NCBI RefSeq assembly: GCF_025151535.1
Contig: NZ_CP102288.1
Span: 129,501 to 193,500 of the forward strand
Source of the DNA: Segatella copri DSM 18205
Lineage (GTDB): Bacteria > Bacteroidota > Bacteroidia > Bacteroidales > Bacteroidaceae
DNA length: 64,000 bases
Direction: 5' to 3'
Shown: piece after piece, positions 12,479 to 17,086 of the stretch
Layout of the letters: each line of letters starts with the position of its first letter
Position numbering within the stretch: position 1 is the stretch's first letter
Notes under the pieces: model-generated
Databases searched by the model: none
What the model was told of the DNA's origin: nothing
The model's input: only the letters and a program-made list of their open reading frames with translations
Position numbers and translations under genes: made by a program

Positions 12479-13042
12479 TTATTCAAGCCCGTCGCCGCTA
12501 TCCTGAGAGCCGCCTCCGCCGCCTTCTTGGGTTCCGCCACCGGTAGTACCTGAGCCGCCCTGGCTGGTGTCAGAGCCACCGCCCTGAGTTGTGTCACCAC
12601 CGCCTGTGGTGCCCTCCTCGTCGGTGCCGATATAGCCGCCGTACTCCTGAATCTTGCACTTCTTGCGCAGCTCGGCATTGCTCCAGCTCTTCGTGTTTCT
12701 CACAATCAGGTGCACGCCCTCCACGCTGGCAGCCGTCACCTTCTCCTTGGTATCCTCCGCCTTGGAGCTCATACCGATGGAGAACAATCCGAGGTCAGAG
12801 AGACGCACGCTCTTGCCGTCGAGAATCAGCTCCTGCAGATGGTCGAGTGCATCCATCAGCACACCGTGGATGGTACCACGAGAGTATGGCGAGCCGTGGT
12901 CGGAGATATGCGATACGAATCCCTCGAAGTCCACTTCGCGGTCGGTTACCGAAGTAGCATACCACTTCTTCTTACCTGCGTTTTCACCAGTCTGAGGTGT
13001 GCGCTGTACTTTACGATATTTCAATGTTCCTTTTACTTCCAT
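12479..13042 (-). CDS. HU-like DNA-binding protein with Gly/Ser/Thr-rich tail
   Basis: 187 residues. Residues 1-130 match the Bacteroidetes HU family DNA-binding protein variant that starts V-K-Y/Y-x-x-x-x-R-x-P: here GTLKYRKVQRTP, then WYATSV..., DFEGFVSHISDHGSPYSRGT, LQELILDGKSVRLSDLG. The remaining ~50 residues are almost only Gly, Ser, Thr and Gln with acidic residues, a disordered tail. Such proteins usually sit beside smalltalk and DUF3987/VirE-type genes in accessory clusters. A consensus-like promoter on the minus strand lies at 13143-13174. Confidence 0.88.
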   Translation of the reverse strand: MEVKGTLKYRKVQRTPQTGENAGKKKWYATSVTDREVDFEGFVSHISDHGSPYSRGTIHGVLMDALDHLQELILDGKSVRLSDLGLFSIGMSSKAEDTKEKVTAASVEGVHLIVRNTKSWSNAELRKKCKIQEYGGYIGTDEEGTTGGGDTTQGGGSDTSQGGSGTTGGGTQEGGGGGSQDSGDGLE

Positions 13043-13053
13043 AATCTTTAGTT

Positions 13054-13107
13054 TTAATGTTGAATGTTAAATTAATAGTGTTGAATGTTGAATGTTGAAT
13101 GTTGACT
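13054..13107. repeat. TTGAATGT tandem repeat upstream of HU gene
   Basis: Runs of TGTTGAATGTTGAATGTTGA in the leader of the HU-like gene, of the same type as 12333-12392 and 26302-26345. Confidence 0.7.
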
Positions 13108-13142
13108 TGGCGGGGTGCACAAGCCTTTCTTGAACGACAGTG

Positions 13143-13174
13143 CAAAGATACGCCAATTTCCCGATACCACCAAA
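13143..13174 (-). promoter_or_regulatory. Promoter for the HU-like gene
   Basis: On the minus strand: TTTG (plus 13171-13174), 20-bp spacer, TATCTTTG (plus 13143-13150), about 100 bp upstream of the HU start. Confidence 0.65.
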
Positions 13175-13318
13175 TTTCAGCGTGTGATAAGGCGCGATTT
13201 TCAGCACGCTTTCAATCCGAAACCTGTTAAACAATCTAACTCGCCGTTTTGCGCCCCGCAACTCATACTTTTTCAGAAGAGAAACCATAGAGTTAAAGAG
13301 AAGAAAACACAGCACCTT

Positions 13319-13539
13319 ATTCAGTATTCAGTTATTCAGTTTTTTTTAAGGGTTTACTTTTTACCCCCTTAAAAAGTAAAGTTTATATACTATCTATATA
13401 TCTATATATATAAATATATATATAATATAATATAATAATAAAAAATACATTACAAAATAACCAATCCCTTTCTTCTGGGTTTTCAAACCCTTTATCTATG
13501 TAAGGGTTTAAAAAAAAACTGAATAACTGAATACTGAAT
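13319..13539. repeat. Nested inverted-repeat element (three-hairpin arrangement)
   Basis: Outer arms 13319-13349 and 13508-13539 are inverted copies over about 30 bp (ATTCAGTATTCAGTTATTCAG plus a T/A run, differing by one base in the run). Inside, TTTACTTTTT/AAAAAGTAAA (13353-13362 and 13371-13380) and AAACCCTT/AAGGGTTT (13485-13492 and 13502-13509) form two further perfect hairpins. The centre (13381-13440) is nearly pure A/T with TATA runs. No ORF. The 23-bp arm sequence recurs exactly at 25651-25673. With flanking sequence this explains most of the 646-bp gap 13043-13688. Confidence 0.8.
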
Positions 13540-13568
13540 ACGGAACAAGGCAATTGCAGAAAGGATTG

Positions 13569-13599
13569 TTCTTATATTTTTCGCGCACTTATAAACATT
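13569..13599. repeat. 31-bp repeat upstream of Rpn-type genes, copy 1
   Basis: TTCTTATATTTTTCGCGCAC followed by TTATAAACATT. A copy with one mismatch lies at 15342-15372. Both stand 100-140 bp upstream of genes of the Rpn family. Confidence 0.7.
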
Positions 13600-13646
13600 T
13601 TCTCAATTTTTATCAGAAAACTCTTGCAGATATGAAAATAAAATCG

Positions 13647-13654
13647 TAACTTTG
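13647..13654 (+). promoter_or_regulatory. -7 element (TAACTTTG) upstream of the 13689 gene
   Basis: TAACTTTG with CTTG 20 bp upstream as a weak -33 element, 35 bp before the start codon. Confidence 0.5.
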
Positions 13655-13688
13655 CTGATGCAATAGAAATATTAATAACATTGGGATT

Positions 13689-14045
13689 ATGAAGCAGGTA
13701 GAAGAAAGATATATCAGTTTTGAAGCCAGCAAGATGGCATATCGTGATATCAAGAATTCAATTGATACCGCCAAGCGAGAAGGTAAAGAAGAGGGCCTGG
13801 CTGAAGGCTGGGAGAAGGGCCTGGCTGAAGGCATGGAAAAGGGCTTGGCTGAAGGCATGGAAAAGGGCTTGGCTGAAGGCATGGAAATGGGCTTGGTAAA
13901 AGGCTTGGCTGAAGGCATGGAGAAGGGCATGAACAAGCGAAGCCTTGAGATTGCCAGAAAGATGCTGGCGAATGGTATGGATGCTGCCACGGTGATGGAA
14001 ATAACAGGATTGTCGGAGAGTCAGTTACAGCAGCTGAAAGGATAA
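13689..14045 (+). CDS. Short Rpn-family C-terminal protein with EGMEKGLA repeats
   Basis: 118 residues that correspond only to the C-terminal part of Rpn-family (PD-(D/E)XK nuclease family transposase-like) proteins. No catalytic domain is present. Residues 35-82 are tandem 8-residue units of the EGMEKGLA type, and the end (ARKMLANGMDAATVMEITGLSESQLQQL) is the typical small helical tail. It has its own promoter-like sequence and start, so it may be expressed. It is probably a truncated Rpn gene; a sequence resembling the Rpn N-terminal half follows it directly. Confidence 0.6.
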   Translation: MKQVEERYISFEASKMAYRDIKNSIDTAKREGKEEGLAEGWEKGLAEGMEKGLAEGMEKGLAEGMEMGLVKGLAEGMEKGMNKRSLEIARKMLANGMDAATVMEITGLSESQLQQLKG

Positions 14046-14161
14046 GGAACTGCCTGGAGAAACGAATGATCTCCGAGGCTGCATCTTTGACATCTATTGT
14101 GTTACCGACGATGATAAACATTTCATCGTTGAGATGCAGAACAGATGGGTACCTTTCTTTG
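14043..14161 (+). pseudogene. Internal fragment of an Rpn-family gene
   Basis: The bases directly after the preceding stop encode, in one frame, NDLRGCIFDIYCVTDDDK and on to MQNRWVPFF, matching residues about 48-84 of the intact Rpn protein at 15480 almost exactly. It stops being similar at 14161, precisely where the 178-bp repeat begins. No start codon. Confidence 0.8.
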
Positions 14162-14338
14162 CGGCTGCACCCTTTCGGCTAGCCCCACACGCCCTGAAGG
14201 GGCAGAAGCTCCTAGCCCAGGGCAACACCCTGGGTATTAATGAAATATAAACTAACGCCCTGTAAGGGCAAAAGCTTTAAAAATATTCGAATTTTAATCT
14301 ATAGGCTTATGGTACATGTAAATGAAACAATAGTTATA
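14161..14338. repeat. 178-bp repeat with GCCCTGAAGGGGC dyads, copy 1
   Basis: Begins CGGCTGCACCCTTTCGGCT and ends about AATGAAACAATAG. The second copy at 16796-16974 is roughly 95% identical end to end. It contains the palindromic modules CGCCCTGAAGGGGCAG, CCAGGGCAACACCCTGG and CGCCCTGTAAGGGC that also build the larger elements at 30089-30389 and 34916-35199. Both copies follow Rpn-derived sequence. Confidence 0.85.
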
Positions 14339-14372
14339 TATTCACTTTTGCGTGATTTTTCTTGCTGAAAAG

Positions 14373-14403
14373 TTTGTTTTATCAAAGATTATTCGTATCT
14401 TTG
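14373..14403 (+). promoter_or_regulatory. Promoter of the Abi leader RNA (copy 1)
   Basis: TTTG at 14373-14376, 19-bp spacer, TATCTTTG at 14396-14403: an exact match to the Bacteroidetes consensus. It lies 76 bp upstream of the Abi start, leaving room for the hairpin leader. Confidence 0.7.
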
Positions 14404-14405
14404 CA

Positions 14406-14463
14406 GCGTCAGTCCTCGCCAAGCCTCTTAACAATGCTCAAATCGTGCGAGGCGTTTTTTATT
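14406..14463 (+). ncRNA. Candidate hairpin non-coding RNA / leader upstream of an Abi-family gene (copy 1)
   Basis: After the promoter comes CAGTCCTCGCCAAGCCTCTT; CCTCGC (14414-14419) pairs with GCGAGG (14447-14452), followed by CGTTTTTTATTT. This gives a ~55-nt transcript ending in an intrinsic terminator directly in front of an Abi gene. A leader with the same start (CAGTTCCTGCCACGCCTCTT) and layout precedes the second Abi gene on the opposite strand (15080-15140). Small RNAs paired with HEPN-domain Abi proteins have been described; the assignment here is by arrangement, not by a search. Confidence 0.5.
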
Positions 14464-14478
14464 TATACACATTTGAAT

Positions 14479-14864
14479 ATGGCAAATCTTATACCTTTTA
14501 CAAAACGATTTGAATCTTCAGAAAATCTCGTTAATTTGCTTGAATCACGAGGTTTACAGATTTATGATAGGAACAAAGCCATACAGTACCTTGACAATAT
14601 TGGTTATTACAGATTGTCTGCTTATATGTATCCTTTGTTGAAGATGCCCAAGACTGCACATTTATACAAGGAAGGTTCATCCTTCAAGAAAGTGATGATG
14701 CTTTATCGTTTTGATAAGAAACTGAGACTACTCATGTTCAATGAGATAGAAAAGATTGAAATTGCTATCCCAAAATAACATGGTTGTTCATTCTGTTTCC
14801 CGAAATTGACTTAAAAGCTCTCGGCTTTCCGCAGGGATGGCGAATGGAACCATTATGGAGGTAA
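14479..14864 (+). pseudogene. Abi-family (AbiD/AbiF-like) protein, internally deleted
   Basis: The start is placed at ATG 14479 (MANLIPFTKRFESS); a longer reading from 14362 would run through the promoter and leader. The first 100 codons match the N-terminal part of Abi_2/AbiF-type proteins: LLESRGLQIYDRNKAIQYL, IGYYRLSAYMYPLL, FDKKLRLLMFNEIEKIEIAI. A stop follows at 14776-14778. Just beyond, in one frame, come WLFILFPEIDLKALGFPQGW and the ending EPLW, the typical C-terminus of the same family. The middle part with the expected HEPN RxxxxH residues is missing, so the toxin cannot be functional. Confidence 0.75.
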
Positions 14865-14866
14865 TT

Positions 14867-15064
14867 TCAAGTGAAACTGCTATTTTGTGCAAATCTATGT
14901 GATTCTGTATTCAGTTCCATCGGTTGTAGGTAGTTCGCAAAACGAAAATAGCTTACAGAATGAAGAAATTTTATAGCATCTTCTTCATCTTCGATTGTCA
15001 GCCCGCGTTCTTTCAGAATGTCAAGTTGACAATAAAAATCCATTGCTTGTTTTGTGTACTGCAT
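14867..15064 (-). pseudogene. N-terminal fragment of a second Abi-family gene
   Basis: 65 codons starting MQYTKQAMDFYCQLDILKER, then GLTIEDEEDAIKFLHSVSYFRFANYLQPME, the characteristic N-terminus of Abi_2-type proteins. It breaks off at FAQNSSFT, where the full-length family would continue for more than 200 residues. It is tail-to-tail with the first Abi remnant, the ends being 2 bp apart, so one rearrangement probably destroyed both. It keeps its own promoter and hairpin leader upstream. Confidence 0.75.
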
Positions 15065-15079
15065 ATTACTTCAGTATAA

Positions 15080-15138
15080 TATAAAACACGAAGTCCTGCC
15101 GTGGTACGCTTTCAAGAAGAGGCGTGGCAGGAACTGTT
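15080..15138 (-). ncRNA. Candidate hairpin non-coding RNA / leader upstream of an Abi-family gene (copy 2)
   Basis: On the minus strand after TAATTTTGCAG: CAACAGTTCCTGCCACGCCT, then CTTCTTGAAAGCGTACCAC, then GGCAGG, then ACTTCGTGTTTTATATT. CCTGCC (plus 15126-15131) pairs with GGCAGG (plus 15095-15100). Position, size, first 20 nt and U-rich end parallel the leader at 14406-14463, though the paired bases differ (CCTGCC/GGCAGG against CCTCGC/GCGAGG), which is a compensatory type of change. Confidence 0.5.
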
Positions 15139-15142
15139 GCTG

Positions 15143-15150
15143 CAAAATTA
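15143..15150 (-). promoter_or_regulatory. -7 element of Abi leader copy 2
   Basis: TAATTTTG on the minus strand, with GTTG 20 bp upstream (plus 15171-15174) as an imperfect -33 element. Confidence 0.5.
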
Positions 15151-15341
15151 CTAATTTCATTCCAAAATGCCAACTTTTTTTTAAAGAATATGCATTCTAA
15201 ATATGCTATTTAACATTGTATAACGGAATTTCGGTCAACGAACCATCTCATGTCATTTGATACTTTCTTCATACTTCTTTTCTTTTGATTCTATTTTGCG
15301 AAGATACAAAAGAATCCGAATAACCGGAAACCATTTCATCT

Positions 15342-15372
15342 TTCTTATATTTTTCGCGCACTAATAAACATT
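15342..15372. repeat. 31-bp repeat upstream of Rpn-type genes, copy 2
   Basis: One mismatch to 13569-13599; it stands in the same position relative to the downstream Rpn gene. Confidence 0.7.
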
Positions 15373-15385
15373 CTCCCTTTGCCAG

Positions 15386-15434
15386 TAACTTTTTCTAAAA
15401 CTTTTCCCCGATTTTCTTGCGTGTTTCGAAATAA
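15386..15434. repeat. 49-bp upstream block, copy 1
   Basis: Begins TAACTTTTTCTAAAACTTTT and ends TTTCGAAATAA. A copy with a single mismatch lies at 17130-17178 upstream of an unrelated small gene. Each is followed 6 bp later by a -7 element (TATCTTTG here, 15440-15447). Confidence 0.8.
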
Positions 15435-15439
15435 AAGTT

Positions 15440-15447
15440 TATCTTTG
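15440..15447 (+). promoter_or_regulatory. -7 element (TATCTTTG) of the rpn gene
   Basis: TATCTTTG with CTTG 20 bp upstream (15416-15419), 33 bp ahead of the start codon. Confidence 0.55.
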
Positions 15448-15479
15448 CGGCAGATTTACAGAATCTAAACTGATAATTT

Positions 15480-16403
15480 ATGGGTAGATACATCAACCCC
15501 TTTACCGACTGGGGCTTCAAGCGTCTCTTCGGTCAAGAGTTCAGCAAGGACTTGCTGATTAATTTTTTGAACGACTTGTTTGAAGGTGAGTTTCAAATCA
15601 AGGACGTAACATTCAAGGATAAGGAACAGCTTGGAGATACTAATGATCTCCGTGGCTGCATCTTTGATATCTATTGTGTTACCGACGATGACAAGCATTT
15701 CATCGTTGAGATGCAGAACAGATGGGTACCTTTCTTTGTGAACCGTTCCATCTATTATGCTAGTAAGGCTTTTGTTGCCCAACGCAAGAAATTTGATGAA
15801 GCTGGTGTCCGCACAGCTATTTTATACCAGTTTGTACCGGTTTATGTGGTTTGCATCATGAATTTTATGCCAAGGGAGCATGAGGTGACAAAGTTTAGGA
15901 CAGACGTTGCTTTGAGGGAGAAGTCTAGTGACTCGATGTTTTCTGACAAGCTTCGTTTCATCTATCTTTCTCTTCCTTTCTTTGATAAGAGTGAGGAAGA
16001 ATGCGAGACAGGTTTTGAAAAATGGATTTATGTTTTGAAGTATATGGAAGTATTGGAAAGATTGCCTTTTACGGCACAGAAGAAGATATTCGATCATCTT
16101 GCTAAATTGGCGGATGTTCGTTGCTTGAGTAGTGAGGAGCAGGAAAAATACGATGAAAGTATTAAGGCCGCCGATGATTACTACTCCGGCCTTTATGGCT
16201 CTTATGTTGAAGGAGAGGAAAAGGGAATGGCTAAAGGTAGAGCAGAAGGAATGGCTAAAGGGATGGCTAAAGGAATGGCTAAAGGGATGGCTAAAGAAAA
16301 GTTAGACACAGCTTACCGCCTTTTGTCAATGGGTCTTTCTGAAGCGCAAGTATCAACGGCCACCGAGCTTCCGCTGGAGGAAATTCAGAAAATGAGGAAA
16401 TAA
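15480..16403 (+). CDS. Rpn family recombination-promoting nuclease/putative transposase
   Basis: 307 residues, full-length. The N-terminal PD-(D/E)XK nuclease domain begins MGRYINPFTDWGFKRLFGQE and has the active-site strands CIFDIYC near 60-66 and FIVEMQ near 75-80. The C-terminal part contains the tandem units GMAKGMAKGMAK around 264-280, then the helical end LSMGLSEAQVSTATELPLEEI. Rpn proteins of E. coli promote RecA-independent recombination and cut DNA; this one is by homology. It is preceded by repeats shared with other genes and followed by a partial duplicate of its own 3' half. Confidence 0.88.
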   Translation: MGRYINPFTDWGFKRLFGQEFSKDLLINFLNDLFEGEFQIKDVTFKDKEQLGDTNDLRGCIFDIYCVTDDDKHFIVEMQNRWVPFFVNRSIYYASKAFVAQRKKFDEAGVRTAILYQFVPVYVVCIMNFMPREHEVTKFRTDVALREKSSDSMFSDKLRFIYLSLPFFDKSEEECETGFEKWIYVLKYMEVLERLPFTAQKKIFDHLAKLADVRCLSSEEQEKYDESIKAADDYYSGLYGSYVEGEEKGMAKGRAEGMAKGMAKGMAKGMAKEKLDTAYRLLSMGLSEAQVSTATELPLEEIQKMRK

Positions 16404-16786
16404 GAACTGGCATTGAAAAATTGATTTCTGTATTGAAGTATATGGAAATGGATGAAGTATTTAAGAATTTGCCTTTAGCGGAACAAAAGAAGATGCTCGA
16501 TCATCTTGCAAAATTGCCAGATGTTCGTTTCTTGAGTAGTGAGGAGCGGGAAAAATACGATGAAAGTATTAAGGCTGTTGATGATTACTACTCCGGCCTT
16601 TATGGCTCTTATGTTGAAGGCGAGGAAAAGGGAATAGCTAAAGGTAGAGCAGAAGCTCGTGCAGAAGGTGAATTATCTAAAGGTTTGACAATAGCCCGTA
16701 ACTTGTTGTCAATGGGTATGTCTTGGTCGCAAATCATGCAGGCTACCGGATTGACAGAAGAAGAATTGAAGCCGCTTCTGGCGTAG
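16404..16786 (+). pseudogene. Duplicated C-terminal third of an Rpn-family gene
   Basis: Directly after the rpn stop, the frame TGIEKLISVLKYMEM continues into LPLAEQKKMLDHLAKLPDV and YDESIKAVDDYYSGLYGSYV, a near-copy of residues about 178-245 of the intact protein, then a different tail (GRAEARAEGELSKG...GLTEEELKPLLA). An in-frame ATG at 16421 could start a 121-residue product, but the nuclease domain is absent. It looks like the remnant of a second Rpn gene recombined onto the end of the first. Confidence 0.75.
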
Positions 16787-16795
16787 TGTATATCT

Positions 16796-16974
16796 CGGCT
16801 GCACCCTTTCGGCTTGCCCCACACGCCCTGAAGGGGCAGAAGCTCCTAGCCCAGGGCAACACCCTGGGTATTAAGGAAATATGAACCAACGCCCTGTAAG
16901 GGCAAAAGCTTTAAAAATATTCGAATTTTAATCTATAGGCTTATGGTGCATGTAAATGAAACAATAATTATACA
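16796..16974. repeat. 178-bp repeat with GCCCTGAAGGGGC dyads, copy 2
   Basis: Near-identical to 14161-14338 over its whole length. It lies 10 bp after the Rpn-derived ORF. Confidence 0.85.
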
Positions 16975-16990
16975 GAGCTCTTCTCCCAAG

Positions 16991-17086
16991 ATGGCAGAAT
17001 GGGTGAAGAGACTGAAGGCTCATAAAGCTGAGCAACTGGAGAAGTTGCGCAACGTAGAGAAGTGTGACTTTGAATTTCAGTTCTGA
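16991..17086 (+). pseudogene. Short coding remnant, 31 codons
   Basis: An open frame MAEWVKRLKAHKAEQLEKLR...FEFQF directly after the 178-bp repeat, with charged helical composition typical of the end of a real protein. No promoter or recognisable family. Probably the C-terminal leftover of a gene lost at this junction; it could also be a genuine small ORF. Confidence 0.35.

Follow-up and report, generated by a model that had tools for sequence, protein, structure and literature searches.

Two probable decayed AbiF-type RNA toxin–antitoxin systems of different subtypes, placed tail to tail in Segatella copri DSM 18205

The locus and its features

The DNA analysed here (the window) is a stretch of 64,000 nt from the Segatella copri DSM 18205 genome. 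It carries two short leaders on opposite strands, each followed by part of an Abi-family gene. The features are as follows, in window coordinates and with the evidence for each in brackets.

14373–14406, plus strand: promoter-like stretch of the plus leader, ending in TTTGCAG (sequence)
14414–14452, plus strand: class I abiF RNA hairpin (RF03085), outer stem CCTCGC/GCGAGG, inner stem AGC/GCT (RF03085 score, class I covariation)
14453–14478, plus strand: U-rich tract after the hairpin and 5' untranslated stretch up to the ATG (sequence)
14479–14769, plus strand: AbiF clade I remnant, residues 1–97 of 300 (tblastn, E 1e-42, 67% identity)
14772–14861, plus strand: AbiF clade I remnant, residues 271–300, in another frame (tblastn, E 4e-9, 60% identity)
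14873–15064, minus strand: Abi_2 clade II remnant, residues 1 to about 68 of 301 (tblastn, E 1e-20 for residues 1–62 and 2e-18 for 7–68)
15094–15132, minus strand: class IIb leader hairpin, outer stem TCCTGCC/GGCAGGA, inner stem ACGC/GCGT, 3' bulge ACCAC (RF03085 below cut-off, model R1, class IIb covariation)
15140–15174, minus strand: promoter-like stretch of the minus leader, with TAATTTTGCAG at 15150–15140 (sequence)

Both genes had been described in a first-pass annotation as Abi remnants on opposite strands, and the tblastn alignments and partial matches to the Abi_2 profile agree with this. The plus remnant scores 68.6 bits over profile positions 1–59 of 184, and the minus remnant 15.7 bits over positions 1–31, below the cut-off of 25.6. 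The plus copy is without residues 98–270, the part in which the R...H motif of full copies falls, and tblastn did not find the rest of the minus copy beyond residue ~68. The two are arranged tail to tail, the minus remnant ending 11 nt from the end of the plus remnant. An intact Abi_2 HEPN protein with an R-x4-H motif is encoded by neither window gene, both being truncated, and judged from these reading frames a full toxin cannot be expected from either. Since both genes are broken, only the RNA half could still act here. Residues 1–97 of the plus remnant align with PDB entry 8vz6 (E 2e-36), the only PDB sequence matched at E 0.001 by either remnant or by two full copies of the genome, P0001 and P0003. 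This entry is the structure of PbAbiF with its ncRNA, AbiFr (PMC12737573), and PMC12373285 and PMC12737573 describe PbAbiF as an RNA-inhibited HEPN ribonuclease.

Both leaders lie just upstream of, and on the same strand as, an Abi_2/AbiF gene, which is the placement typical of RF03085 RNAs, with the difference that the genes are remnants. The motifs quoted in the first-pass annotation were all located where it had put them: TATCTTTGCAG, the plus-strand instance of TAnnTTTGCAG, at 14396–14406 and CAGTCCTCGCCAAGCCTCTT at 14410–14429 on the plus strand, and TAATTTTGCAG together with CAGTTCCTGCCACGCCTCTT (15136–15117) on the minus strand. Its stems CCTCGC/GCGAGG and CCTGCC/GGCAGG pair fully, and a U-rich tract is present 3' of the hairpin and ahead of the ATG in both leaders. 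The motif TAnnTTTGCAG is by itself not rare: counting both strands, the 64 kb contain 6 sites.

The plus leader belongs to the abiF RNA family RF03085: positions 14415–14452 score 52.7 bits against a cut-off of 37 (E 6e-7, all of Rfam searched over the window), and no other Rfam family exceeds its cut-off in the 64 kb. Its promoter has TTTG near −33 and TATCTTTG at −7, an arrangement that we take to be the Bacteroidota-type promoter motif, and the U-rich tract within 14453–14478 is probably terminator-like. The minus leader scored 30.5 bits with RF03085 (15131–15094; E 0.011 in a permissive search of the 4 kb from 13000 to 17000) and, being under the cut-off of 37, was filed as a related class, IIb. 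A second covariance model, R1, was built from 43 class II leaders of other genomes only, the window's genome being excluded (L026, one of the training sequences, belongs to a close relative, and its protein and P0001 are 94% identical). R1 gave 37.5 bits for the minus leader (E 6.2e-8 in the window), the runner-up in the window scoring 12.4 bits. The minus leader shares with RF03085 an architecture of outer stem, inner stem, loop and 3' bulge, and on this ground, together with the partial match, a non-abiF family was rejected. Chance resemblance is likewise ruled out by the RF03085 match on the plus strand and the R1 match on the minus strand; with the clear covariation described below, these bear out the earlier view that the leaders are structured RNAs. 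The suggestion of an AbiF-like class with a small-RNA partner also holds, given the score of the plus leader and 8vz6 as the only PDB sequence match of its remnant. It can be refined: the leaders are of separate RNA classes, each of which goes with its own protein clade.

Other AbiF systems in the same genome

The window's genome is a single contig of 3.33 Mb. RF03085 matched it at nine places at E up to 10, eight of them above cut-off, and Abi_2 at eight places at E up to 1, comprising five full copies and three remnants, two of which are those in the window. R210 and H215 are invariant in three of the full copies (P0001, P0003 and P0004). Against the PbAbiF chain of 8vz6, the full-length P0003 of class I reaches 432 bits (residues 1–300) and the clade II protein P0001 reaches 236 bits, and the plus-strand window gene differs from the same chain in being without residues 98–270. 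Inspection of upstream regions showed that two clade II genes are preceded by CCGCCACGC...AGCGAACCAGGGCGG leaders and one clade III gene by a CCCGTCGGCA...TGCTGGCGGGT leader, none of which Rfam reports. On this held-out genome, R1 gave four matches at E up to 1. All of them lie immediately before a clade II Abi_2 gene, which is full in two cases and a remnant in the other two, the window's match at 37.5 bits being among the latter. At 1217657–1218034 of the genome (L023), a class II leader is followed by an open frame of 125 aa in which the first ~34 Abi_2 residues are joined in frame to a C-terminal part with the motif RNCCAHH; by its sequence, this frame appears to be a natural in-frame internal deletion.

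Relatives, covariation and the reach of Rfam

A scan with an alignment of three Abi_2 proteins, the clade II protein first, returned at least 379 stretches encoding relatives, and the best 80, ranked by likeness to the clade II protein, were used. Apart from one betaproteobacterial bin, their sources are Bacteroidota and Chlorobiota. The class patterns assign a class II leader to 64 of these 80 loci and a class I leader to 15, and the 80th, L104, has a class I leader with an insert before a protein cut to 232 residues. A lack of conserved structure upstream of intact Abi homologues, which would have told against the first-pass annotation, was not observed: a leader is present in 79 of 80 loci picked by protein, and in the last it is enlarged by an insert. 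The class patterns were composed after these sequences had been inspected and so are not independent evidence; that is provided by R1 on the held-out genome. A motif-free scan took the leader as the best hairpin in 70 of the 80 loci, two of those with a different pairing; at L038, among the ten remaining loci, it chose the first hairpin of a tandem pair. It was replaced by the class patterns because its rules misfit some class I forms. Two tandem leader hairpins before one gene, recalling the two-motif RCd22, were seen at L038 and at G045:C5:2282 and 2419. No confirmed relatives were found in viral contigs scanned with P0001 and P0003.

The leader structure covaries, as is required of an AbiF-type RNA toxin–antitoxin system. 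Among class II leaders, 5 of 12 pairs are changed on both sides, with 48 double-changed cells against 16.3 in shuffles and 0–6 in slid controls, and the invariant columns are CGC, GCG, a further C and GG. In class I (21 sequences, the window's included), 3 of 11 pairs are changed on both sides, the window contributing at two; 2 of the 11 fail in 14 of 21 rows, which is a real difference between two class I forms. Class IIb and near forms (11 sequences including the window's) have 5 of 11 pairs changed on both sides.

Class IIa, the commonest kind of leader in a sample that the query biases towards clade II, was not detected by RF03085 at E 0.5 in any of nine loci, nor at the gathering score in 20 further loci, and none of seven class III loci matched any Rfam family at E 0.5. 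In total, Rfam 15 reported none of the 29 class IIa and seven class III leaders tested under any family. Other class IIb leaders score about 30–47 bits with RF03085, on either side of the cut-off (for example 39.1 bits for the class IIb-type L039 and 34.2 for L092), and an intermediate class II leader, L159, scores 29.8 bits, below it. As the tested class IIa leaders were missed, the Rfam abiF model may need widening.

RNA class and protein clade

For a protein tree, 114 distinct sequences of at least 230 residues were taken from the loci collected. By pattern, 70 were labelled class II, 28 class I and six class III, and ten had no label; on visual inspection, two of these ten were assigned to class II and two to class III. 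After removal of L181 (truncated) and L188 (373 residues), 112 rows were left. Class I (28 rows) and class III (8 rows) each form one clade with 100/100 support, and class II (71 rows) is paraphyletic. The five leader-less proteins are four members of a separate deep clade and L178, which sits on a long branch and is of unsure placement. The tree needs four label changes, the minimum being three, against a mean of 37.3 for shuffled labels, and none of 200 shuffles gave a number as low. RNA class therefore tracks protein clade. Class II is found across Bacteroidota and Chlorobiota, and class I in Bacteroidales.

Window positions 14340–14407, in front of the class I hairpin, share 94% identity with the sequence preceding a class II leader elsewhere in the genome (G000:1614603–1614670). 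Given this identity across two classes that are each matched to a clade, promoters appear to have moved between systems while the hairpins stayed with their proteins. The same similarity could be read as a repeated promoter or mobile repeat, the two window leaders being recent copies of each other, since promoter stretches are common to several systems and recombination seams coincide with some of the leaders. This explanation is highly improbable, and for the hairpins it is refuted: their stems, inner helices and bulges are unlike, and the classes to which they belong precede many Abi_2 genes; one leader being a recent duplicate of the other is ruled out by their different classes.

It could also be argued that the hairpin is only a cis-acting attenuator or terminator of the toxin mRNA and binds no protein. 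Both leaders do have a hairpin and then a U-rich tract ahead of the ATG, and early termination is part of the control described for C. difficile in PMC12373285. Against this, the loop, inner stem and 3' bulge are conserved beyond the needs of a terminator, as the invariant class II columns attest, a terminator would need no match between leader class and protein clade, and RCd22 acts in trans and binds the protein (same source). A purely cis-acting role is accordingly very unlikely.

Loss of the toxin without loss of the RNA

The genus was surveyed in 60 genomes, the window's included, each at least 90% complete, the filters being stricter with so many genomes. RF03085 was found in 22, R1 in 20 and Abi_2 in 36 of these. 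Merging gave 80 leaders. Five weak ones, detected by R1 only and below 28 bits, were not counted further; one of the five precedes a full gene. The remaining 75 stand before a full Abi_2 gene (34), a partial one (12) or none (29), so that 41 of 75 are without a full toxin, or 35 of 69 after removal of six near contig ends. One toxin has two tandem leaders and several leaders of genome G049 are near-identical copies, for which reason the cases of toxin loss are not independent events. Some of the 29 without a downstream Pfam match keep 16–66 N-terminal residues, two of these 29 keep the C-terminal end as well, like the window, and others retain no trace.

The converse is rare. Only one of 108 clade I–III proteins (L178) is without a leader; part of this set was found through the RNA, whereas the best 80 of the 379 loci were picked by protein. 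In front of L104 (232 aa) and the full-length L167 (304 aa), the leader is of class I but its 3' bulge holds an insert of ~80 nt. Not every Abi_2 protein comes with a leader, the four deep-clade proteins and L178 being without one. In the 60 genomes, no leader hit accompanied 30 of the Abi_2 matches. Seven of these proved on inspection to be class III, four belong to the deep clade, one is L178, two are truncated and the remaining 16 are weak or partial matches, one of them an N-terminal fragment. The toxin is thus lost often and the RNA rarely, which is the asymmetry predicted for an RNA antitoxin because losing the RNA first is costly and losing the toxin first is not.

Leaders without a toxin were examined in a set of 55 de-duplicated class I/II leaders found by pattern, which omits the window's plus leader and extends in part beyond the 60 genomes; 25 have a full toxin, 27 do not and three are cut by contig ends. 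All six outer-stem positions pair in 24 of the 27 leaders without a toxin and in 22 of the 25 linked to one, and TAnnTTTG is present in 23 of 27 (one miss being a contig edge) and 25 of 25, respectively. Across three pairs of orphan leaders, the RNA shows differences at 3 of 113 sites, where the flanks would predict 13.0 (P 0.001). These figures, and the lack of a full toxin at 35 of 69 leaders, would suit the retention of toxin-less leaders as antitoxins in their own right, which might for instance confer immunity to AbiF carried by incoming elements. On the other side, one of the three pairs lies within a single genome and its flank aligns poorly, and without it the count is 3 of 74 against 7.3 (P 0.07). 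Conservation is also partly built in, since the orphans were found by their fold, and the 45-nt orphan promoters differ at 12 of 135 sites, like the flanks; three of the orphan promoters are damaged and two class I orphan stems have a mismatch. Retention as stand-alone antitoxins is, on balance, unlikely.

Several rearranged leaders were seen in the survey. A similar insert of ~80 nt interrupts the 3' bulge of class I leaders after GCTCAA at L104:2371, L239 (G067:C68:14774) and L240 (G068:C82:918), and in L239 and L240 a second GCTCAA closes the insert, as would be left by an insertion that duplicates its target. G068:C82 has a full-length protein, L104 a cut one and G067 a fragment. In G049, L215 and L217 have a near-identical class II leader, after which about 25 initial Abi codons run in frame into an unrelated-looking protein that resembles the end of a dGTPase, and two more G049 contigs break inside the same RNA. 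Among L219, L022 and L019, the leader at G049:C36:22936 matches G000:314k from −516 to +44 (86%) and G000:1613k from −61 onward (92%); from the extents of these matches, the leader and promoter lie at a recombination seam.

Interpretation and comparison with known systems

To our knowledge, experimental tests exist for two AbiF systems only, that of C. difficile and PbAbiF. PMC12373285 reports that in C. difficile RCd22 neutralises AbiF by direct binding, for which its stems are required, and that the leader has its own promoter, mostly stops before the gene and binds AbiF, read-through giving the toxin. The likeness of AbiF-Cd/RCd22 to the window extends to an abiF-motif leader before an Abi_2 gene with a promoter in front; a terminator between RNA and gene and a read-through transcript belong to the C. 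difficile system, in which RCd22 has two abiF motifs, compared with one per window leader, and the window genes are broken (PMC12373285). Type III systems (ToxIN, AbiQ, CptNI and TenpNI) also have an RNA antitoxin upstream of a ribonuclease toxin with a terminator between them, and AbiF-Cd is counted there as a new member of type III (PMC12373285). The window differs from ToxIN and its kin in toxin family and in having no tandem antitoxin repeat: the remnants match Abi_2 and not the ToxN family, and each leader has one hairpin.

Promoter, hairpin, U-rich tract and close ATG fit the C. difficile scheme, and by analogy binding and termination would be expected here too. In an intact system, the promoter would yield a short hairpin RNA ending at its own U-rich tract; this RNA would bind the AbiF HEPN ribonuclease dimer and keep it silent, and occasional read-through would give the toxin mRNA. 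In the window, the catalytic region appears to be gone from both toxins, and both leaders and promoters look intact. With promoter and fold kept by both RNA genes, the locus would then make at most antitoxin RNA. We consider it highly probable that the window holds two decayed AbiF-type RNA toxin–antitoxin systems of different subtypes, tail to tail, of which at most the antitoxin RNA is made. A bolder proposal, that Bacteroidota AbiF comprises at least three matched RNA–protein specificity classes despite a common genome and promoter, and that the abundant toxin-less leaders are stand-alone protective antitoxin RNAs, seems doubtful.

The RNA type itself is known; this analysis adds class II and III leaders that went unreported by Rfam where tested, the correspondence between these leaders and protein clades, and the frequency of toxin-less leaders. 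AbiF has been described in PMC12737573 as the ancestor of CRISPR-Cas13, with the leader RNA as groundwork for the guide RNA. Clade-matched RNA–protein pairs that reside in one genome make RNA specificity in the AbiF family directly testable, and with about half of the leaders in the genus lacking a full toxin, the fate of an RNA antitoxin after toxin loss can be asked.

Surroundings of the locus

A 177-nt repeat, 97% identical, occurs at window positions 14162–14338 and 16796–16972 and holds a hairpin weakly resembling Acido-Lenti-1 RNA; these matches (26.9 bits, cut-off 37) were rejected. Beside it, a 124-nt piece of a PDDEXK_2 transposase gene is repeated at 14038–14161 and 15615–15738. In-frame 12-nt repeats (GLAEGMEK and GMAK type) are present at 13767–13931 and 16221–16301 in two genes, one of them PDDEXK_2, and differ between the copies.
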